Assembly (NCBI RefSeq): GCF_001434665.1
Contig: NZ_AZDG01000003.1
Span: forward strand, 1 to 64,000
Direction: 5' to 3'
Origin: Companilactobacillus tucceti DSM 20183
GTDB lineage: Bacteria; Bacillota; Bacilli; Lactobacillales; Lactobacillaceae
DNA: 64,000 nucleotides
Part shown: in pieces, positions 21,459-61,334 of the stretch
How the letters are laid out: the number at the start of each line of letters is the position of its first letter
How positions within the stretch are numbered: the first letter of the stretch is position 1
The notes under the pieces: generated by a model
What the model was told of the DNA's origin: nothing
The model's input: the letters and a program-made list of their open reading frames with translations, nothing else
The model's database searches: none
Program-made: the position numbers and the translations under genes

Positions 21459-21588
21459 TATGCGGCATAAACGTGTGACAACACATAGCTTTTTTTGCTT
21501 AAATCAAATAAAGTAGGTAATCCAGTTGGATTACCTACTTTATTTACTTTAATGCTCGAAAGCTGACCATGTGTTGTCACACTCTCTA
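21459..21588 (-). repeat. class I stem-variable element after asnS
   Basis: The closing arms ATGTGTTGTCACAC (21569-21582) and GTGTGACAACACAT (21473-21486) pair over 14 bases. Inside lie the cores CAGCTTTCGAGCATTAA and TTTAAGC-A7-GCT (minus strand) and a long inner hairpin at 21506-21545. Right end ACGTTTATGCCGCATATT. Same cores but different arms occur at 29245, 32670, 39262 and 49362. Confidence 0.8.
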
Positions 21589-22979: not shown

Positions 22980-22996
22980 TACGAATTTCTCCTTTT

Positions 22997-23334
22997 AGTT
23001 GCCCTTAACGTCTACGACGTTTAGGGCAAATTATGCGAACGTCTAAAGACGTCCGCGTACCATATATATAAAATCAAAAACCTAAAAACACATTAATGTA
23101 GGTTACCCTTAATGCAAAAACTTAGGATTTTAAAAACTACTTTGAAATTAATAACCATTCACATAAGTTGCCCTAAATGCCACTAGCATTATAAAACAAT
23201 CGGGTCGCGGATGGTCTTTCGACCATTCGCATAAGTTGCCCTAAACGTCACTGGCATAAAAAACAATCGGTTCGCGGATGGCCTCTGGCCATTCGCATAA
23301 GTTGCCCTAAACGTCGCAGACGTTAAGGGCAACT
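22997..23334 (-). repeat. hairpin repeats (class IV) in the asnS leader
   Basis: Two direct repeats of 68 and 66 bases (23162-23229 and 23230-23295) are followed by a half unit (23296-23334). An inverted unit lies at 22997-23060. Each unit contains AGTTGCCCT(A/T)AACGTC and GACGTT(A/T)AGGGCAACT hairpin parts, then a GCGAA-hairpin-TCCGCG module whose stem differs between units (CTCTGGCC, TCTTTCGA, CTAAAG). They lie inside the transcribed leader, after the T-box terminator. Confidence 0.75.
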
Positions 23335-23337
23335 AAA

Positions 23338-23606
23338 AAATGACCCCCATCCCTCGGTAAAAGGGACGAAAGTCATTCGCGGTACCACCCAAATTTGTTT
23401 TCTTCCGAAAACATCTCAAACAAGCACAAACATGCTTTATGACTATAACGTGTCACATACGTCAAACCCTACTATTGGTTCAGGCCGATGTAAAAAGATG
23501 TTATTCGTAAATACTCGCATGTTAAGTTCACACTATCCTTAACTCACTGAAAATTAAGTAATTAGTACTTCTTCTTTTTAAAATCCTAAGTATTAAGTTA
23601 AAAAAA
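23338..23606 (-). promoter_or_regulatory. T-box leader of asnS (specifier AAC)
   Basis: On the minus strand GGGTGGTACCGCG (about 23377-23389) is the T-box sequence. The stem I region holds GAATAACATC, with AAC (23500-23502) as a plausible Asn specifier. The terminator pairs AATGACTTTCGTCCC with GGGATGGGGGTCATT and is followed by T6. Uncharged tRNA-Asn would favour read-through into asnS. Confidence 0.9.
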
Positions 23607-29244: not shown

Positions 29245-29553
29245 ATGCAGCCTAAACGCGTAAACATACATAGCTTTTTTGCTTAAAGTAAACCAGCCCA
29301 GCAATCCTTCGGATTGTTGCTTCTACTTTTCTCAAATATGCAGCTTAAACGCGTAAACATACATAGCTTTTTCCGCTTAAAATAAACTAGCCCAGCAATC
29401 CTTTGGATTGTTGCTTCTACTTATCTCAAACATGCAGCTTAAACGCGTAAACATACATAGCTTTTTCCGCTTAAAGTAAACTAGCCCAGCAATCCTCCGG
29501 ATTGTTGGGCTAGTTTACTTTAATGCTCGAAAGCTGAACATGTATGTTTACGC
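29245..29553 (-). repeat. class I stem-variable element with three tandem right halves, after ubiE
   Basis: Closing arms GCGTAAACATACAT (29445-29458) and ATGTATGTTTACGC (29540-29553) are perfect over 14 bases and enclose the class I cores and an inner hairpin. The right half is repeated twice more (29245-29337, 29338-29431), each with the same right arm and an AATCC-TTY-GGATT hairpin. The ubiE stop codon (29548-29550) lies inside the left arm. Confidence 0.82.
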
Positions 29554-32669: not shown

Positions 32670-32800
32670 CAGAGTGGAAAAAAATATGCTCAGCTTTCGA
32701 GCATTAAGGCAAGTAGGCTCAGTAATCCGATTTTGGATTATTGAGCCTACTTATTTTAAGCGGAAAAAGCTATATTTTTTCCACGTTTATGCTATATATA
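32670..32800 (+). repeat. class I stem-variable element after the uracil permease
   Basis: GTGGAAAAAAATAT (32674-32687) pairs with ATATTTTTTCCAC (32772-32784) with one bulged A. Cores CAGCTTTCGAGCATTAAG and TTTTAAGCGGAAAAAGCT flank an inner hairpin at 32710-32751 (AGTAGGCTCA...TGAGCCTACT). Sense strand is that of the gene. Confidence 0.8.
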
Positions 32801-43460: not shown

Positions 43461-44465
43461 ATGAAAATTTTTGCTTATGGAATTCGTGATGATGAAAAAC
43501 CATCTATGGAGAAGTGGGAGAAAGCAAATCCAGATGTAGAGGTTGGATATACAGATCAATTGTTGACACAGGAGACAGCTAAATTAGCTGATGGTGCCAA
43601 CGGTGTAGTAACACTTCAAACAACGCCTTACGAGAGAGGTGCACTTGAAGCTTTGAAGGAACAAGGTATCCAATCCATTTCTATTCGCAATGTTGGTGTT
43701 GATAATTTTAATTTTAAAGATTTAAATGATTTAGGCTTTAAGTTGACTAATGTACCAGTATATTCACCAAATGCTATTGCTGAACATACTATTCTATTAA
43801 TGGGTCGCTTGCTTCGTCGCGTCCCAGAAGTAGATACTAAGTTTGATAATGGTGACTTTACTTGGGCTCCAACTATTGGTAAAGAATACCGTGAACAAAC
43901 AGTCGGTGTTATCGGTACTGGTCATATTGGCCGCGTAGTTATCAAGATTTTGCAAGGATTCGGTGCAAAGGTTATTGCCTATGATGTTTACCACAATCCT
44001 GATATTGAAAAACAAGGATTATACGTAGACTCACTTGAAGATATTTACAAGCAATCAGACGTTATAACACTTCATGTCCCATTATTTGACAGCAACAAAC
44101 ATATGATCAATGAGAAAGCTATCGAACAAATGAACGACGGTGTATTCATCGTCAACTGTGCTCGTGGTGAATTGATCGATTCAGAGGCTTTGATCAAAGG
44201 GCTTGATGATAAGAAAATTGCCGGTGCCGGACTTGATGTTCTCGATAACGAAAACAGAGTCTTCGGTAAGAAATGGGGTAGCATTGATAACCTTCCAAGT
44301 TCAGATATTAAGAATTTGGCTGAACGTAAGAATGTTATCATCACACCACATAACGCCTTCTATACTGAAACAGCCGTTCACAATATGATCAAGATATCAT
44401 TTGATTCAAATAAGGCTTTGATTGAAGGCAAAACACCAGATACATTAATTGACACAAATAAATAG
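43461..44465 (+). CDS. D-lactate dehydrogenase (D-2-hydroxyacid dehydrogenase)
   Basis: The 334-residue protein has the NAD-binding GTGHIGRVVIKILQGFGA, the catalytic Arg in VNCARGELID, Glu in the AGLDVLDNE region and His in ITPHNAFYTETAV. The His-Asn-x-Phe-Tyr-Thr-Glu tail is typical of D-LDH of lactobacilli. It reduces pyruvate or another 2-oxo acid to the D-hydroxy acid with NADH. AAGGAGG precedes ATG. Cotranscribed with the EamA gene. A paralog is at 45675. Some family members prefer 2-hydroxyisocaproate; specificity not certain. Confidence 0.88.
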   Translation: MKIFAYGIRDDEKPSMEKWEKANPDVEVGYTDQLLTQETAKLADGANGVVTLQTTPYERGALEALKEQGIQSISIRNVGVDNFNFKDLNDLGFKLTNVPVYSPNAIAEHTILLMGRLLRRVPEVDTKFDNGDFTWAPTIGKEYREQTVGVIGTGHIGRVVIKILQGFGAKVIAYDVYHNPDIEKQGLYVDSLEDIYKQSDVITLHVPLFDSNKHMINEKAIEQMNDGVFIVNCARGELIDSEALIKGLDDKKIAGAGLDVLDNENRVFGKKWGSIDNLPSSDIKNLAERKNVIITPHNAFYTETAVHNMIKISFDSNKALIEGKTPDTLIDTNK

Positions 44466-44477
44466 TATTTAATTTTT

Positions 44478-44508
44478 GTAGTGCGACGTTAGTCGTGCTA
44501 CTTTTTTT
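44478..44508 (+). terminator. intrinsic terminator
   Basis: GTAGTGCGAC and GTCGTGCTAC pair with two G-U pairs, followed by T7. Confidence 0.8.
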
Positions 44509-44515
44509 GTTGCGT

Positions 44516-44692
44516 TGTCGCTTCCGGATTTGAGTAATTCCACCTGTTGTGCGAACGACTTCAGCCGAGGTCTGAAGTCTCGATTTGAAGCTTTGCTTAC
44601 GCAAATCTTCGAATCGTCGGTGGAGTAAGAACGCAAGCGTTCAACTCCACTTTCACAACTGGTTCCATTACTCAAATCCTCCAGCTGATATT
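44516..44692 (-). repeat. class III four-stem structured element, copy A
   Basis: On the minus strand GGATTTGAGTAAT (44667-44679) pairs with ATTACTCAAATCC (44526-44538). Inside are P2 (GTGGAGT...ACTCCAC, GAACGC-TT-GCGTTC), P3 (CGAAGATTTGC-GTAA-GCAAAGCTTC) and P4 (ACTTCAG-ACCTCG-GCTGAAGT), with conserved GACGA and AAATCGAG between them. Sister copies at 45402 and 61075 keep the layout with different stem sequences. Confidence 0.75.
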
Positions 44693-44804
44693 AATAGAAT
44701 AAATAAACCCATAAATATATAACAAGATTATTAAATGATTGTATCTGGAAGTGTTAAAAATATTTGAAACTAGATTAGGAAATTATTTACCTAAATGAAA
44801 GCAT

Positions 44805-44838
44805 AAAAAAAAGCAGGAAAAGTAAACATTTTCTGCTA
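44805..44838 (-). terminator. terminator of the tiny-peptide transcript
   Basis: Minus strand AGCAGAAAATGTTTAC and TTTTCCTGCT form a hairpin followed by T8. It lies downstream of the 22-codon reading frame. Confidence 0.65.
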
Positions 44839-44848
44839 GTTAAATAGT

Positions 44849-44917
44849 TTATTTATTATTTTCAACAACTTCATAAAAAGCTAGTAATTTTTGAATGGCC
44901 TCTTTTATGTTTATCAT
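44849..44917 (-). CDS. putative 22-residue peptide
   Basis: The frame encodes MINIKEAIQKLLAFYEVV plus ENNK, a short amphipathic helix. GGAGG lies 12 bases upstream, a long but usable spacing. Its upstream region is overlapped by the start of an opposite-strand RNA with a near-consensus promoter, and a terminator follows. This is the layout of small-peptide toxins with an antisense RNA, but the peptide lacks the membrane helix of Fst or TxpA types. Function unknown. Confidence 0.4.
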   Translation of the reverse strand: MINIKEAIQKLLAFYEVVENNK

Positions 44918-44919
44918 AA

Positions 44920-44948
44920 TTGATAAAATCCTCCGGCGATAGTATAAT
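44920..44948 (+). promoter_or_regulatory. strong promoter of an antisense-type RNA
   Basis: TTGATA (44920-44925), 17 bases, TATAAT (44943-44948): a near-consensus sigma-A promoter. It lies across the ribosome site of the opposite-strand 22-codon frame. Confidence 0.75.
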
Positions 44949-44954
44949 GCATTT

Positions 44955-45047
44955 GTACAAAAAAGCAGGAGTTATGCGAGAACTCCTGCAACGCAAGTCT
45001 AGTACGGTATTTGGTGAAGCTAACCTTTTAGGTTAGCTTTTTTTATT
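44955..45047 (+). ncRNA. candidate small antisense RNA (about 93 nt)
   Basis: The RNA has hairpin GCAGGAGTT-ATGCGAG-AACTCCTGC, a single-stranded middle, and terminator GAAGCTAACC-TTTT-GGTTAGCTTTTTTT. It is complementary to the minus-strand transcript between the 30- and 22-codon frames and covers the 3' end of the former. Type I antitoxin-like position. Confidence 0.55.
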
Positions 45048-45112
45048 GCCATGTAGGCTTTTGCTAATAATAAAATGACCTTAGCAATGTTAACCGCCGA
45101 CATGGACAACAT
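45020..45112 (-). CDS. putative 30-residue hydrophobic basic peptide
   Basis: The frame encodes a peptide with a hydrophobic core (IAKVILLLAKAYMAI) and a lysine-rich end (KKANLKG). This fits a small membrane-active peptide. It has no own Shine-Dalgarno but overlaps the end of a 25-codon frame that has one, so translation could be coupled. A second ATG at 45103 gives 27 residues. Its 3' end lies inside the terminator of the opposite-strand RNA. I do not recognise the sequence; it is not a canonical Fst toxin (no Pro, no Trp). Confidence 0.4.
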   Translation of the reverse strand: MLSMSAVNIAKVILLLAKAYMAIKKANLKG

Positions 45113-45167
45113 ATATATCGTTACAACTAACGACATACGCCGAATACCTTTCTAGAGTAGTATGCAT
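45090..45167 (-). CDS. putative 25-residue leader peptide
   Basis: The frame starts MHTTLERYSAYVVSCND and ends VVHVGG. GAGGTGG lies five bases before the ATG, the best ribosome site in this locus. The start codon sits in a GTAGT-TATGCAT-ACTAC hairpin that could hide it. It overlaps the 30-codon frame by 23 bases in another frame, as in coupled leader-toxin pairs. A -10-like TATACT and TATATT region lies about 110 bases upstream near 45270. Confidence 0.35.
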   Translation of the reverse strand: MHTTLERYSAYVVSCNDIYVVHVGG

Positions 45168-45401
45168 AACTACCACCTCGATTTTTTGAAATTAAACTGA
45201 GGGGTGTAGTACCGCACACGCTTGCTAAGCCAGTTTGATAGGGAGCGACCTTACCTCTTTGCTATAAATATAGTATATTCTATATTAATTTTATTCGCCT
45301 TTAAACTACTTGGCAATTTAGCAAACAAAAACTATCAACAATCCTCTGATTAGATGCTGATATTTTGTTACTTTTTTTATTTCCTAAATTACTATAAAAG
45401 C

Positions 45402-45570
45402 CGGAGTTCAAGAGGATGTGTGGTCAGCAGTTACAGTGGTGTTGGTTGCTTGCAACCTTACACCACTGACGTATTCCAAGATTTGCGGAGCAAAGCTTGA
45501 AATCGAGGTTCAAGACCAAGGCTTGAACCGTTCCAACAGCAGACCACACGTCCTCTTGACCGGAGGCGAA
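45402..45570 (+). repeat. class III four-stem structured element, copy B
   Basis: CAAGAGGATGTGTGGTC (45409-45425) pairs with GACCACACGTCCTCTTG (45542-45558), 17 pairs including one T-G that is a valid pair only in the plus-strand RNA. P2 CAGTGGTG...CACCACTG with GGTTGC-TT-GCAACC, P3 CAAGATTTGC-GGA-GCAAAGCTTG, P4 GGTTCAAG-ACCAAG-GCTTGAACC. Ends ACCGGAGGCGA as copy C. Confidence 0.75.
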
Positions 45571-45674
45571 ATCCCCTCTTCCATTTTTCAAAATTTGAGT
45601 TACACTAATAAACATTAACATTTAATTAGAAAAACATTAGATTTCTAATTAATTTTAAAGAAAGAGGGATTTTT

Positions 45675-46682
45675 ATGAAGATATACGTTTTTGGTCTCCG
45701 AGAAGACGAAATTGAACCTTTAAACCAATGGAAAGCCGCTAATACAGATGTCGATGTTGAATATACTGCTGATATTTTGACTGAAGACACGGCTAATTTG
45801 GCTAAAGGTGCAGATGGGGTTGTTGCGTTACAAACACAACCCTATAGTAGAAAAGCTCTTGAGATCATCCATGACCTTGGCATCAGCAAATTCTCAGTTA
45901 GAAACGTCGGATTAGACGGATTTAACTTTAAGGATTTAAATGACTTTGGTTTTACTTTAACGTATGTCCCTGTCTATTCCCCCAACGCTATCGCCGAGCA
46001 TGCATCATTTTTAGTTGGTCGCCTGCTTCGCCGTGTTCCAGAATTTGATAAGAAATTCCAAAGTGGAAACTTCAAATGGTTCCCTACTATTGGTACAGAA
46101 ATAAGTGGTAAGACCGTTGGTGTTATTGGAACTGGACACATTGGTAGTGTCTTCGCTCGCATTATGAAGTTCGGTTACGGAGCTAATGTTATTGCTTATG
46201 ATATCGACCCTAACCCTGCTCTAGAAAATCTAGGTATTTATGTGGACACACTTGATGAGTTACTGGAAAAATCTGATATTATTTCAATTCATACTCCACT
46301 TGCACCGAAGGATCATCATATGTTGGACGCTAATGCTATAGCCAAAATGAAAAACGGAGTATACTTGATAAACTGCGCTCGTGGTGGATTATTGGATAAT
46401 CAAGCCTTGATCGATGGCCTCGATAGTGGAAAAATTGCTGGAGCTGGATTAGATGTTTTGGAAAATGAAAATGGCATCTTCCAAAATGAATTTGATAGTA
46501 TCGAAGCTGTTGACGATGAGGTTTTCCAAAATCTCGCTCATCGTGACAATGTGATTATCACGCCACATACAGCTTTTTATACTGAACGTGCCGTTCACAA
46601 TATGATTTTTGATTCTATGAACGACAATAAGGCAATGATTTCTGGTAAAAAAGCAAAGAATATTGTTGATACTCATAAATAA
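45675..46682 (+). CDS. D-lactate dehydrogenase paralog (D-2-hydroxyacid dehydrogenase)
   Basis: The 335-residue protein aligns end to end with the enzyme at 43461, sharing GVIGTGHIG, NCARGGLLD, the AGLDVLENE region and ITPHTAFYTERAVHNM, so all catalytic residues (Arg, Glu, His) and the NAD site are present. GAGGGAT precedes ATG. The two genes are separated by 1.2 kb of non-coding elements and tiny frames, with no shared transcript expected. Probably one is the main D-LDH and the other a 2-hydroxyacid dehydrogenase of different preference; the sequence does not decide which. Confidence 0.87.
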   Translation: MKIYVFGLREDEIEPLNQWKAANTDVDVEYTADILTEDTANLAKGADGVVALQTQPYSRKALEIIHDLGISKFSVRNVGLDGFNFKDLNDFGFTLTYVPVYSPNAIAEHASFLVGRLLRRVPEFDKKFQSGNFKWFPTIGTEISGKTVGVIGTGHIGSVFARIMKFGYGANVIAYDIDPNPALENLGIYVDTLDELLEKSDIISIHTPLAPKDHHMLDANAIAKMKNGVYLINCARGGLLDNQALIDGLDSGKIAGAGLDVLENENGIFQNEFDSIEAVDDEVFQNLAHRDNVIITPHTAFYTERAVHNMIFDSMNDNKAMISGKKAKNIVDTHK

Positions 46683-48906: not shown

Positions 48907-49401
48907 TTGGAAAATAATATCTATTTGAACAGACTCAAAAAATTACATATAGATTATCGAGTTATCACGCATAAGCCAGTTTTTCACATGGATGATCTGC
49001 CTGAAATAAAGAAAAAGTGCACCTTAGTCAAAAATTTATTTGTCTTTGATAAAAAACACGAAAAATATTATTTGATATTACAAACAGCAGATGACCGACT
49101 AGATTTTAAAAAATTAGCGAAACAATTAAATACCAGCAAAAGTAGCTTAAATTTTGCGGACACTAAAGTTTTAAAAACATTTTCCGGAATGGTCAGCCCA
49201 TTGATATTGGAAGCAGACATGCCTTTAAGAATATTGGCCAATCCTAATTTAGTAGGCAAAAACGATTTAGGATTCCATGCTGGCACTAATACAGAAACAA
49301 TAATTATGTCTTATCATGCCCTGTTAAACTTTTTAAACTCGTTGAATTATATGATTGAAGTTTTAGAGTGTAATGATACACGTTCAGCTTTCGAGCATTA
49401 A
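48907..49401 (+). CDS. YbaK/ProX-type aminoacyl-tRNA deacylase
   Basis: The 164-residue protein has the YbaK/ProRS INS fold: N-terminal YRVITHKPVFHMDDL, KNLFVFDKKHEKYYLILQTAD and ADTKVLKTFSGMVSPLIL, matching PrdX/ProXp-type deacylases that hydrolyse misacylated Ala-tRNA-Pro. TTG start with GAAAGG upstream. The last eleven codons (about 49366-49401) lie inside the left arm and core of the class I element, so its C-terminus and stop codon are supplied by the element. Confidence 0.85.
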   Translation: MENNIYLNRLKKLHIDYRVITHKPVFHMDDLPEIKKKCTLVKNLFVFDKKHEKYYLILQTADDRLDFKKLAKQLNTSKSSLNFADTKVLKTFSGMVSPLILEADMPLRILANPNLVGKNDLGFHAGTNTETIIMSYHALLNFLNSLNYMIEVLECNDTRSAFEH

Positions 49402-49495
49402 GGCAAACGCCCCTATCAATCCGATTTTGGATTGATAGGGGCGTTTGTTTTAAGCGGAAAAAGCTGTGTATCGTTGCACGTTTACGCTGCATATT
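49362..49495 (+). repeat. class I stem-variable element overlapping the end of the YbaK gene
   Basis: GTGTAATGATACAC (49368-49381) and GTGTATCGTTGCAC (49466-49479) pair in all 14 positions of the plus-strand RNA, two of them G-U. Cores TTCAGCTTTCGAGCATTAAG and TTTTAAGCGGAAAAAGCT; inner hairpin 49402-49449 (AACGCCCCTATCAATCC...). The left part is coding. Confidence 0.82.
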
Positions 49496-60876: not shown

Positions 60877-60925
60877 TGATTATATCAAAAAAAGATCCTC
60901 AAAAGAGGATCGTCCAAAAACACTT
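60877..60925 (-). repeat. direct repeat with terminator, right flank of the DUF262 gene
   Basis: Second copy of the segment at 58968-59015: TTTGATTATATCAAAAAAA, hairpin GATCCTC-AAAA-GAGGATC, then GTCCAAAAACAC. Confidence 0.65.
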
Positions 60926-61070
60926 GTATCTTGAATATTTGTTCCGTCAATATTTGGAGCCATCTCTACTTTTGTATCATTGGCCAAAACGTCACTACTA
61001 TTAATGAAAGCTTTTAATTTTTTCTCAAGTTTGGTTATTTTTTCATGAGATAGCAAAAACAAAAAATAAC
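60880..61070 (-). pseudogene. coding remnant adjoining class III element C
   Basis: The minus frame reads LSHEKITKLEKKLKAFINSS then DVLANDTKVEMAPNIDG, a plausible soluble protein end, but its upstream part is element C and its downstream part is a terminator. It looks like the 3' remainder of a gene cut by the element or by deletion. Confidence 0.3.
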
Positions 61071-61074
61071 CTAG

Positions 61075-61255
61075 CCGGAAGGAACAAGAAAATTGGGCCG
61101 CTGTAAAGGTGATGTTAGGTCGGTGGATTTCCGGCCTTACAGCACAGGACGACTTTTGAACTTCGCGCATTTTGCGAAGCTCAAAATCGAGACCCGAGAC
61201 CGAGGCTCGGGTCGGTCCCATAGCGGACTAATTTTCTTGTTCCTGGAGGCGACAT
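61075..61255 (+). repeat. class III four-stem structured element, copy C
   Basis: GGAACAAGAAAATT (61081-61094) pairs with AATTTTCTTGTTCC (61230-61243). P2 GCTGTAA...TTACAGC, P3 GACTTTTGA-ACTTCGC...GCGAAGC-TCAAAATC, P4 ACCCGAG-ACCGAG-GCTCGGGT. Conserved GACGACTTT, AAATCGAGA, AGACC-N-(C/A)GGCT and the end GGAGGCGACATAG match copies A and B. Confidence 0.72.
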
Positions 61256-61334
61256 AGTACTATTTCAAAAACATACTTATTCCAACCAAACTTGAGAAAG
61301 AACCGATTTTTCTCAAGATCACACTTTTTTTCAC

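Follow-up and report, generated by a model that had tools for sequence, protein, structure and literature searches.

The structured element at positions 45397–45571 belongs to a new family of structured intergenic repeats, set apart from published repeats by their descriptions. A covariance model (R1) reveals at least 31 sense copies, two of them truncated, in the genome of Companilactobacillus tucceti DSM 20183, 150 of 402 first-look candidates having been scored; a first-pass annotation had described three, here called A, B, and C. These lie in the window, by which we mean the whole stretch of 64,000 nucleotides that was analyzed. Members of the family have a common branched fold, common ends, and one strand polarity, occur in high copy number, and mostly face each other where they lie close together. 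The element is confirmed as real, and the earlier reading of it as an unexplained structured element is supported. The best explanation, to which we give about an even chance, is that it is a copy of a large family of non-autonomous, structure-dependent mobile intergenic repeats; high copy number and the mostly head-to-head arrangement of close copies point to a mobile repeat and away from an ordinary gene for non-coding RNA.

Structure and strand of the element

The features are as follows (R1 was built from 15 copies of this genome, A, B, and C included).

44516–44688, minus strand: copy A, left member of the head-to-head pair A/B (covariance model R1, 174.5 bits; A is in the R1 build set)
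44689–45396, no strand: 708-nt middle of pair A/B (comparison with the orthologous G213 locus)
45397–45571, plus strand: copy B, right member of pair A/B (covariance model R1, 165.3 bits; B is in R1)
45408–45425, plus strand: 5′ arm of outer P1 of B, copy-specific sequence (minimum-energy fold; inverted repeat I12)
45434–45468, plus strand: stem P2 of B (fold; helix 4 of the 138-copy alignment, two-sided changes in six of seven pairs)
45470–45505, plus strand: stem P3 of B (fold; helix 5 of the same alignment, two-sided changes in 12 of 14 pairs)
45507–45529, plus strand: stem P4 of B with the AGACCNNGGCT loop (fold; helix 6 of the same alignment, two-sided changes in six of nine pairs)
45542–45559, plus strand: 3′ arm of outer P1 of B (fold; inverted repeat I12)
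61071–61254, plus strand: copy C (covariance model R1, 152.2 bits; C is in R1)

The three copies were found where the first-pass annotation had placed them, and folding of A, B, and C bears out its layout P1-P2-P3-P4-P1′, which is also present in further copies. The minimum free energies are −79.3 kcal/mol for A (z −9.0), −85.5 kcal/mol for B (z −8.1), and −92.0 kcal/mol for C (z −8.0), and none of 200 dinucleotide shuffles of each copy folded as well. The contiguous outer pairs of P1 number 13 (A), 18 (B), and 17 (C) in these folds, close to the 13–17 originally given. P1 was also said to have no common sequence, which is true between A, B, and C but not within subfamilies, where its sequence is shared; inner P1 is better conserved than outer P1 and reads CAGCTGT/ACAGCAG in the family. 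Mean column identity in the A/B/C alignment is 74%. Among the strings described as constant, AAATCGAG is indeed found in all three copies, whereas B reads GACGT in place of GACGA, and A reads GGAAGCGA in place of GGAGGCGA, the family reading being GGAGGCGGC.

The compensating changes reported for every stem are borne out on a larger scale. An unfitted alignment of 15 copies from this genome reveals two-sided changes in 41 of 57 pairs, and an alignment of 138 distinct copies in 51 of 57. In the latter, 95.3% of 7735 cells are standard pairs, compared with 74.7% after shuffling and 33–43% with slid partners, and the covariation score of 0.581 falls to 0.187 on shuffling and to 0.083 or less with slid partners; having been fitted to the model, this alignment leans towards structure. 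No variation in AAATCGAG or AGACC..GGCT is seen among the 15 own copies, which were found via that very pattern.

To learn which strand folds, G-T and A-C were scored equally, and the P1 positions flanked by Watson-Crick pairs were counted in 247 copies. These comprise 3989 Watson-Crick pairs, 145 G-T, 66 A-C, 342 other mismatches, and 93 gaps; the G-T/A-C ratio of 2.2 (bootstrap 1.7–3.0) indicates that one folded strand is favored. In a smaller set the G-T:A-C counts are 45:19 for outer P1, 27:9 for inner P1, 33:26 for P3, and 12:7 for P4, while P2 is reversed (25:59), one position being C-A in 52 copies. It is apparently the model-sense strand that folds, whether in the form of RNA or of single-stranded DNA; wobbles are few either way. 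Strand-symmetric selection on DNA only, in line with a first count by eye in which G-U and A-C were about equal, is given less weight, since the symmetric-scoring counts favor G-T in P1.

At gathering threshold, Rfam 15 has no match on the elements of the window, where its only match is a T-box outside them, and none on the element in 26 loci of relatives (14 loci and a further 12 that include types 2 and 3, described below), which agrees with the original statement that no known riboswitch, intron, or small RNA fits. The only Rfam match among the loci of relatives is to Bacillus-plasmid RNA, outside the element (L291:1759–1827). When E-values up to 5 were allowed for positions 44400–45700, four rows were returned, all far below gathering scores; the only one over B is a microRNA model (best E 0.19), which scores 14.3 bits where its gathering score is 500. 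The first-pass annotation had named beforehand two outcomes that would speak against it, a known Rfam or repeat family and loss of pairing in additional copies; Rfam 15 has no match, and pairing is retained in the further copies of the 138-copy alignment.

Copy C, for which no nearby partner was found, has a GmrSD-like gene on one side and an HTH gene on the other. It is overlapped by an ORF without a Pfam match (60880–61221, minus), an example of how annotation is affected by ORFs called through element copies. A 19-nt inverted repeat, TTTTTTCTCAAGTTTGGTT, which is 95% complementary, brackets this copy (61018–61036 and 61284–61302), and similar strings are found beside L001, a truncated copy, and L161. 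Other repeats are present in the window. One is a hairpin of the form TTAA-stem-AATCC-nnn-GGATT-stem-TTTAA, or parts thereof, with differing stems and similar tips (21499–21552, 29283–29319, 29377–29413, 29471–29523, and 32704–32759). A second hairpin, with AGCTTTCGAGCATTAA ... TTAAGCGGAAAAAGCT-like ends, occurs at 49385–49466, beside L001, and next to position 65668 of contig C51 of this genome (G000); one of its relatives is joined to an element copy that is truncated. Inverted repeats with GTTGCCCTAAACGTC (22993–23338, including 56-nt arms) adjoin the T-box leader (RF00230, 23359–23590, minus).

Occurrence and types

The pattern AAATCGAG-N3..9-AGACCNNGGCT occurs 17 times in this genome and not at all in the reversed control. 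Among the matches listed, it is frequent in contigs of Companilactobacillus nantensis, kedongensis, huachuanensis, insicii, baiquanensis, hulinensis, and keshanensis, and also scattered in unrelated bacteria, as expected by chance for 17 fixed bases in a very large collection. The R1 search of this genome returned 42 rows, from which 11 opposite-strand matches at the same places were dropped; the truncated copies L001 and L016, and duplicates of the same copy, were left out of the larger alignment set. Searches over more than 40 genomes were run with stricter filters. Of the 201 Lactobacillaceae genomes sampled, 47 have an R1 match (E ≤0.001, the E-values being rough), and these span 11 of 40 genera; in the genus of C. 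tucceti seven of nine match, this genome included; at the same threshold no copy was detected in the congeners G003 and G043. In the order sample 46 of 395 genomes match at 1e-5, and in the phylum sample one of 398 at 1e-8, namely the C. tucceti genome itself. In G212, equated with C. kedongensis, all 150 candidates that the scoring limit allowed match, and at least 111 copies are listed; the R1 matches number 143 in G015, 143 in G172, and 130 in G185, totals that may include opposite-strand shadows. A family with at least 31 copies here, more than 100 in a relative, and very clean covariation is absent from Rfam 15 and from the open-access literature searched. Copy B gave no blastn match with plasmids or phages, a weak test with a 175-nt query.

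Seventeen loci from the family and order searches were read individually and fall into three types, so that the family and order counts mix types; weak matches (35–50 bits) outside these loci may include unrelated long hairpins. Six loci are like type 1, the kind present in the window, although L281 and L168 among them lack the AGACC loop. The seven of type 2 (L283–L288 and L290) have no P4 and carry the motifs CTCAG..., GGCCGAG or similar, and CGTTCCAG. The four of type 3 (L289 and L291–L293) consist of P1-P3-P4 with AGACCNNGGCT and either CGGTCCCAC or CGGTGCCACC. The exact pattern AGACCTTGGCT-N3..8-CGGTCCCA is found in seven of 395 order genomes, five of them outside the family, and not in the reversed control. 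Among viral contigs, this 19-base type 1/type 3 pattern has one match, L294 (IMGVR_UViG_3300017957_000027, 1797–1820, minus). In G336 a type 3 copy sits within a 248-nt unit with GGGACTGGGAAATAA-like inverted ends, which is present at two sites with 99% identity (L299 and L303). In G458 the 5′ half of a type 3 copy is replaced, by eye, by an IS3-type OrfA-like part (L296 and L302), 502 nt being 98% identical at both sites.

Pairs, ends, and turnover

Of 76 fetched neighbors with gaps below 400 nt, 73 are head-to-head, three point in the same direction, and none is tail-to-tail; the median gap is 136 nt (range 11–364). Close head-to-head pairs account for 146 of 251 fetched copies, and 105 have no head-to-head partner within 400 nt; the loci of this census were fetched since they hold copies and are not a random genome sample, and one opposite-strand row was dropped. 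Among listed copies, all 27 neighbors within 1 kb are head-to-head in C. kedongensis, 25 of them with gaps of 87–149 nt, as are 6/6 in G015, 7/8 in G202, and 2/3 in G213. By comparison, none of the 67 copies listed for G172 has a listed neighbor within 1 kb, and a partner is present at only one of nine fetched G172 loci against seven of nine in G185, so that pairing is not universal. A head-to-head pair is also found at the type 2 loci L283 and L290 (judged by motif position), and two listed matches of G014 are likewise arranged.

The partners are not copies of each other. Their identity is 0.622 compared with 0.664 for random pairings in 24 C. nantensis pairs (0 of 10,000 permutations as low, to printed precision), 0.600 compared with 0.621 in 20 C. 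kedongensis pairs (P 0.015), and 0.588 compared with 0.610 in eight pairs of this genome (P 0.22); the highest value is 0.76. The idea of the pair as one duplicated unit was rejected on this ground. Instability of long palindromes could explain the low likeness of partners. Fixed heterotypic pairing of two subtypes was also considered and rejected: the signal in C. nantensis is weak (six same-cluster pairs against 11.6 expected, P 0.008, at K=4 only), with nothing at K=2 or 3 and none in C. kedongensis or this genome. A search for conserved middles by comparison of upstream flanks gave matches of little weight, largely because the 150-nt flanks run into the partner copy.

The copies begin with TAGCC and end with GGCGGCA, and only an A-rich stretch is evident in the profile of their upstream flanks. 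With a classical MITE in mind, these ends are common to the copies, while the arms of P1 vary from one subfamily to another. In C. nantensis, nine copies with up to 96% identity can be matched as far as both ends, beyond which, except for the A-rich 5′ stretch, their flanks are unrelated; no target site duplication was seen by eye in these flanks. Their P2 tips differ (GGAC-TTTA-GTCC, GTGC-TTTA-GCAC, and others), a few being mismatched. Likewise, five complete A-type copies of this genome, 93–98% identical over 115–167 nt in the comparisons listed, differ in the outer five to six pairs of P1, still paired; a sixth has no 5′ arm. Two G202 copies differ in the same way.

In 16 comparisons of copies at orthologous-looking sites, partly non-independent, the flanks are 70–96% identical, and the element is 0.87–0.90 identical in three and 0.53–0.76 in 13. 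Where the sequence is kept (L069/L079 and L221/L222), stems change on both sides, for instance in P4, and some stem changes are uncompensated. We read this turnover as copying, replacement or conversion between copies, and compensating change.

The pair A/B is flanked by two genes for D-2-hydroxyacid dehydrogenases (43461–44465 and 45675–46682). By eye, a terminator-like hairpin follows the first gene ahead of A, and a block between B and the second gene is common to four species. In G213 the model boundaries place the two copies of the orthologous locus only 11 nt from each other, so about 0.7 kb of the 708-nt middle is extra here; this middle may be a type I toxin-antitoxin region. C. kedongensis holds both A and B at this locus, split between two contigs, and G202 lacks the pair, its aligned blocks being separated by 105 nt. 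Elsewhere in G202 (C11:180695–181075), part of the A/B middle has a 74% match.

Possible origins and comparison with known repeats

As mobile units, repeats of about 155–200 nt, of which a single strand of one polarity folds into the branched four-stem structure, would be under selection for the fold and not for the letters of the stems. The likely reason would be a trans-acting enzyme that recognizes the folded single strand during copying. New copies with defined ends would settle in intergenic DNA, often near the ends of genes, and build up as head-to-head neighbors on either side of a short middle, while their sequence would turn over by replacement or conversion between copies along with compensating change. 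Mobility, present or past, is favored by the A/B pair, present in three genomes and missing from G202, and by size differences at other sites, inconsistent gene contexts, the 93–98% identity of sister copies in one genome, the nine C. nantensis copies that match up to both ends amid unrelated flanks, the retained structure, the favored strand, and a copy number ranging from none detected (G003 and G043) to at least 111 (G212). The prevalence of head-to-head neighbors is reminiscent of REPIN doublets. Against it, similarity extends into the flanks in L031/L085 and C/L003; filled and empty sites reveal no junction of a single element that is clean, since L070/L067 differ by the pair together with its middle, and L032/L027 by about 300 nt where the element measures 182 nt; and no within-species movement was seen. 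Unlike partners argue that the pair is not simply a copied unit, and compensating changes at a few orthologous sites also count against mobility, since a dead insertion would show none.

No enzyme was found with the Y1 and reverse transcriptase profiles in the carriers tested, and both proteins are absent from some carriers. Y1 transposase (PF01797, Y1_Tnp) is present in five of nine tested genomes and was not found in the carriers G000, G213, and G185. Of the 201 family genomes, 49 encode reverse transcriptase (PF00078, RVT_1), which was not found in the carriers G000, G185, G015, G102, G128, and G075; 12 of 47 element-positive genomes possess it, as expected without an association. Among the ORFs between two copies 3.4 kb apart in this genome, and 2.5 kb apart in G202, no transposase was recognized by eye. 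The enzyme may belong to the past or be encoded in unassembled DNA.

The main rival, ranked second, is a host-useful module at transcript ends: past a terminator the element would fold in the nascent RNA and stop, cut, or destabilize read-through, a pair serving both directions. This deserves to be taken seriously, even if we think it considerably more apt to be wrong than right. Among 20 of the at least 27 C. kedongensis pairs, 17 have within 31 nt a stop codon that belongs to a gene directed towards them, and the flanking orientations (+- 10, ++ 5, -- 5, -+ 0; crude ORF calls) include no divergent genes. The middles of 15 of these pairs fold at −20 kcal/mol or lower (no shuffle control), and most of the 15 look, by eye, like long terminator hairpins. 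The favored strand, as deduced from the G-T excess, is the one that read-through would transcribe, and compensating changes at orthologous sites would also fit a useful module. However, the pair A/B lies between the terminator-like hairpin of one gene and a block upstream of the next, which is also present, by eye, in the pair-less G202. Terminator-like sites within 160 nt of 246 copies number 21 upstream-antisense, 27 upstream-sense, 33 downstream-antisense, and 12 downstream-sense, against 1/249 for each strand of shuffled upstream flanks with the simple finder used; at 5–13% of copies per side and strand, the terminator is an enriched but not an obligatory neighbor. The congeners in which no copy was detected, the many copies with no head-to-head partner within 400 nt, and the rarity of pairs in G172 also weigh against this module.

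It is unlikely that stem complementarity is kept by template switching of DNA at hairpins (quasi-palindrome correction) together with gene conversion, with little selection on the folded product. Near-identical copies that differ in the P1 ends or the P2 tip are mostly still paired, and two-sided changes (1696 cells) far outnumber G-U (224 cells), both of which speak in its favor. Strand-symmetric DNA repair, by contrast, predicts no excess of G-T over A-C such as the 145:66 found in P1, and correction leaves unexplained that AGACC..GGCT and AAATCGAG rank with the best conserved parts, though the copies were partly found by these. A trans-acting or cis-regulatory RNA, whether a riboswitch or a small RNA gene, is suggested by the complex branched fold with conserved loops and is very improbable: the copies number dozens to over 100 per genome, Rfam has no match on the loci compared, no promoter-like motif is evident in the upstream flank profile, and the gene orientations around 40 pairs (+- 12, ++ 10, -- 10, -+ 6, two undetermined; crude ORF calls) do not reveal the constant position and orientation of a riboswitch or leader. 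Least probable of all, a derivative of REPIN/RAYT, IS200/IS605, or a group II intron would account for the inverted doublets, the lack of target duplications by eye, and the closeness to gene ends, and is opposed by the carriers in which neither Y1 transposase nor reverse transcriptase was found.

Mobile repeats and host use could also be combined. We tentatively suggest, as a conjecture more probably wrong than right, a genetic element of a new kind in which the head-to-head pair would be the unit that works: two unlike folds of the same polarity, often around a terminator. It would be spread by machinery that recognizes single strands and is neither Y1 nor reverse transcriptase, and the host might use it as a two-way insulator of gene ends across the Lactobacillaceae, types 2 and 3 being relatives there and in other Lactobacillales. 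The family offers many natural replicates in which the persistence of a fold can be followed through the rewriting of its stems. It also opens the questions of a mover without Y1 transposase or reverse transcriptase and of face-to-face structured repeats as insulators of bacterial transcription units.

No description of the repeat was found in the open-access papers searched, through which alone known repeat families were compared. Its best reading is as analogous to REPINs without being one. REPINs or BIMEs with their RAYT (PMC3116915) are likewise high-copy and intergenic, form inverted doublets with a spacer, are predicted to fold as single-stranded DNA or mRNA, and show compensating changes in their hairpins. 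The REP unit is short, whereas about 175 nt form one branched fold in the present family. Inverted doublets are present here; the near-identical doublet members of REPIN/RAYT systems were not found among the 24 C. nantensis, 20 C. kedongensis, and eight own pairs. REPIN partners are described as better conserved (PMC3116915), whereas in two of the three species tested here partners resemble each other less than random pairings do. RAYT systems use a Y1 (HUH) transposase, and none was found in three carrier genomes. BOX, RUP, and SPRITE of Streptococcus pneumoniae (PMC3049150) are small interspersed repeats of the same order of size; BOX and RUP are tightly folded, and SPRITE is terminator-like and near the 3′ ends of genes. 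Compared by description only, BOX and RUP have terminal inverted repeats and target duplications (PMC3049150), neither of which is evident here.

Surveys of non-coding RNA in 50 and 26 genomes have been published (PMC11109978 and PMC8632094, respectively), and stem-loop families have been tabulated with one lactobacillus in the table (PMC2267715). The string "Lactobac" is absent from the main text of PMC11109978. Its MRSC-65-2 and other mobile or repeat candidates, which are read as selfish structured nucleic acid, resemble the present family in often having dozens of copies per genome and strong covariation; MRSC-65-2 is one long stem, whereas the element here has four stems and conserved loops. 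Lacto-int, Lacto-usp, and Lacto-rpoB (PMC2864571) are also structured motifs of Lactobacillales. The motifs of that study with an Rfam number have no match at the elements, and Lacto-int has no Rfam number in the table seen.
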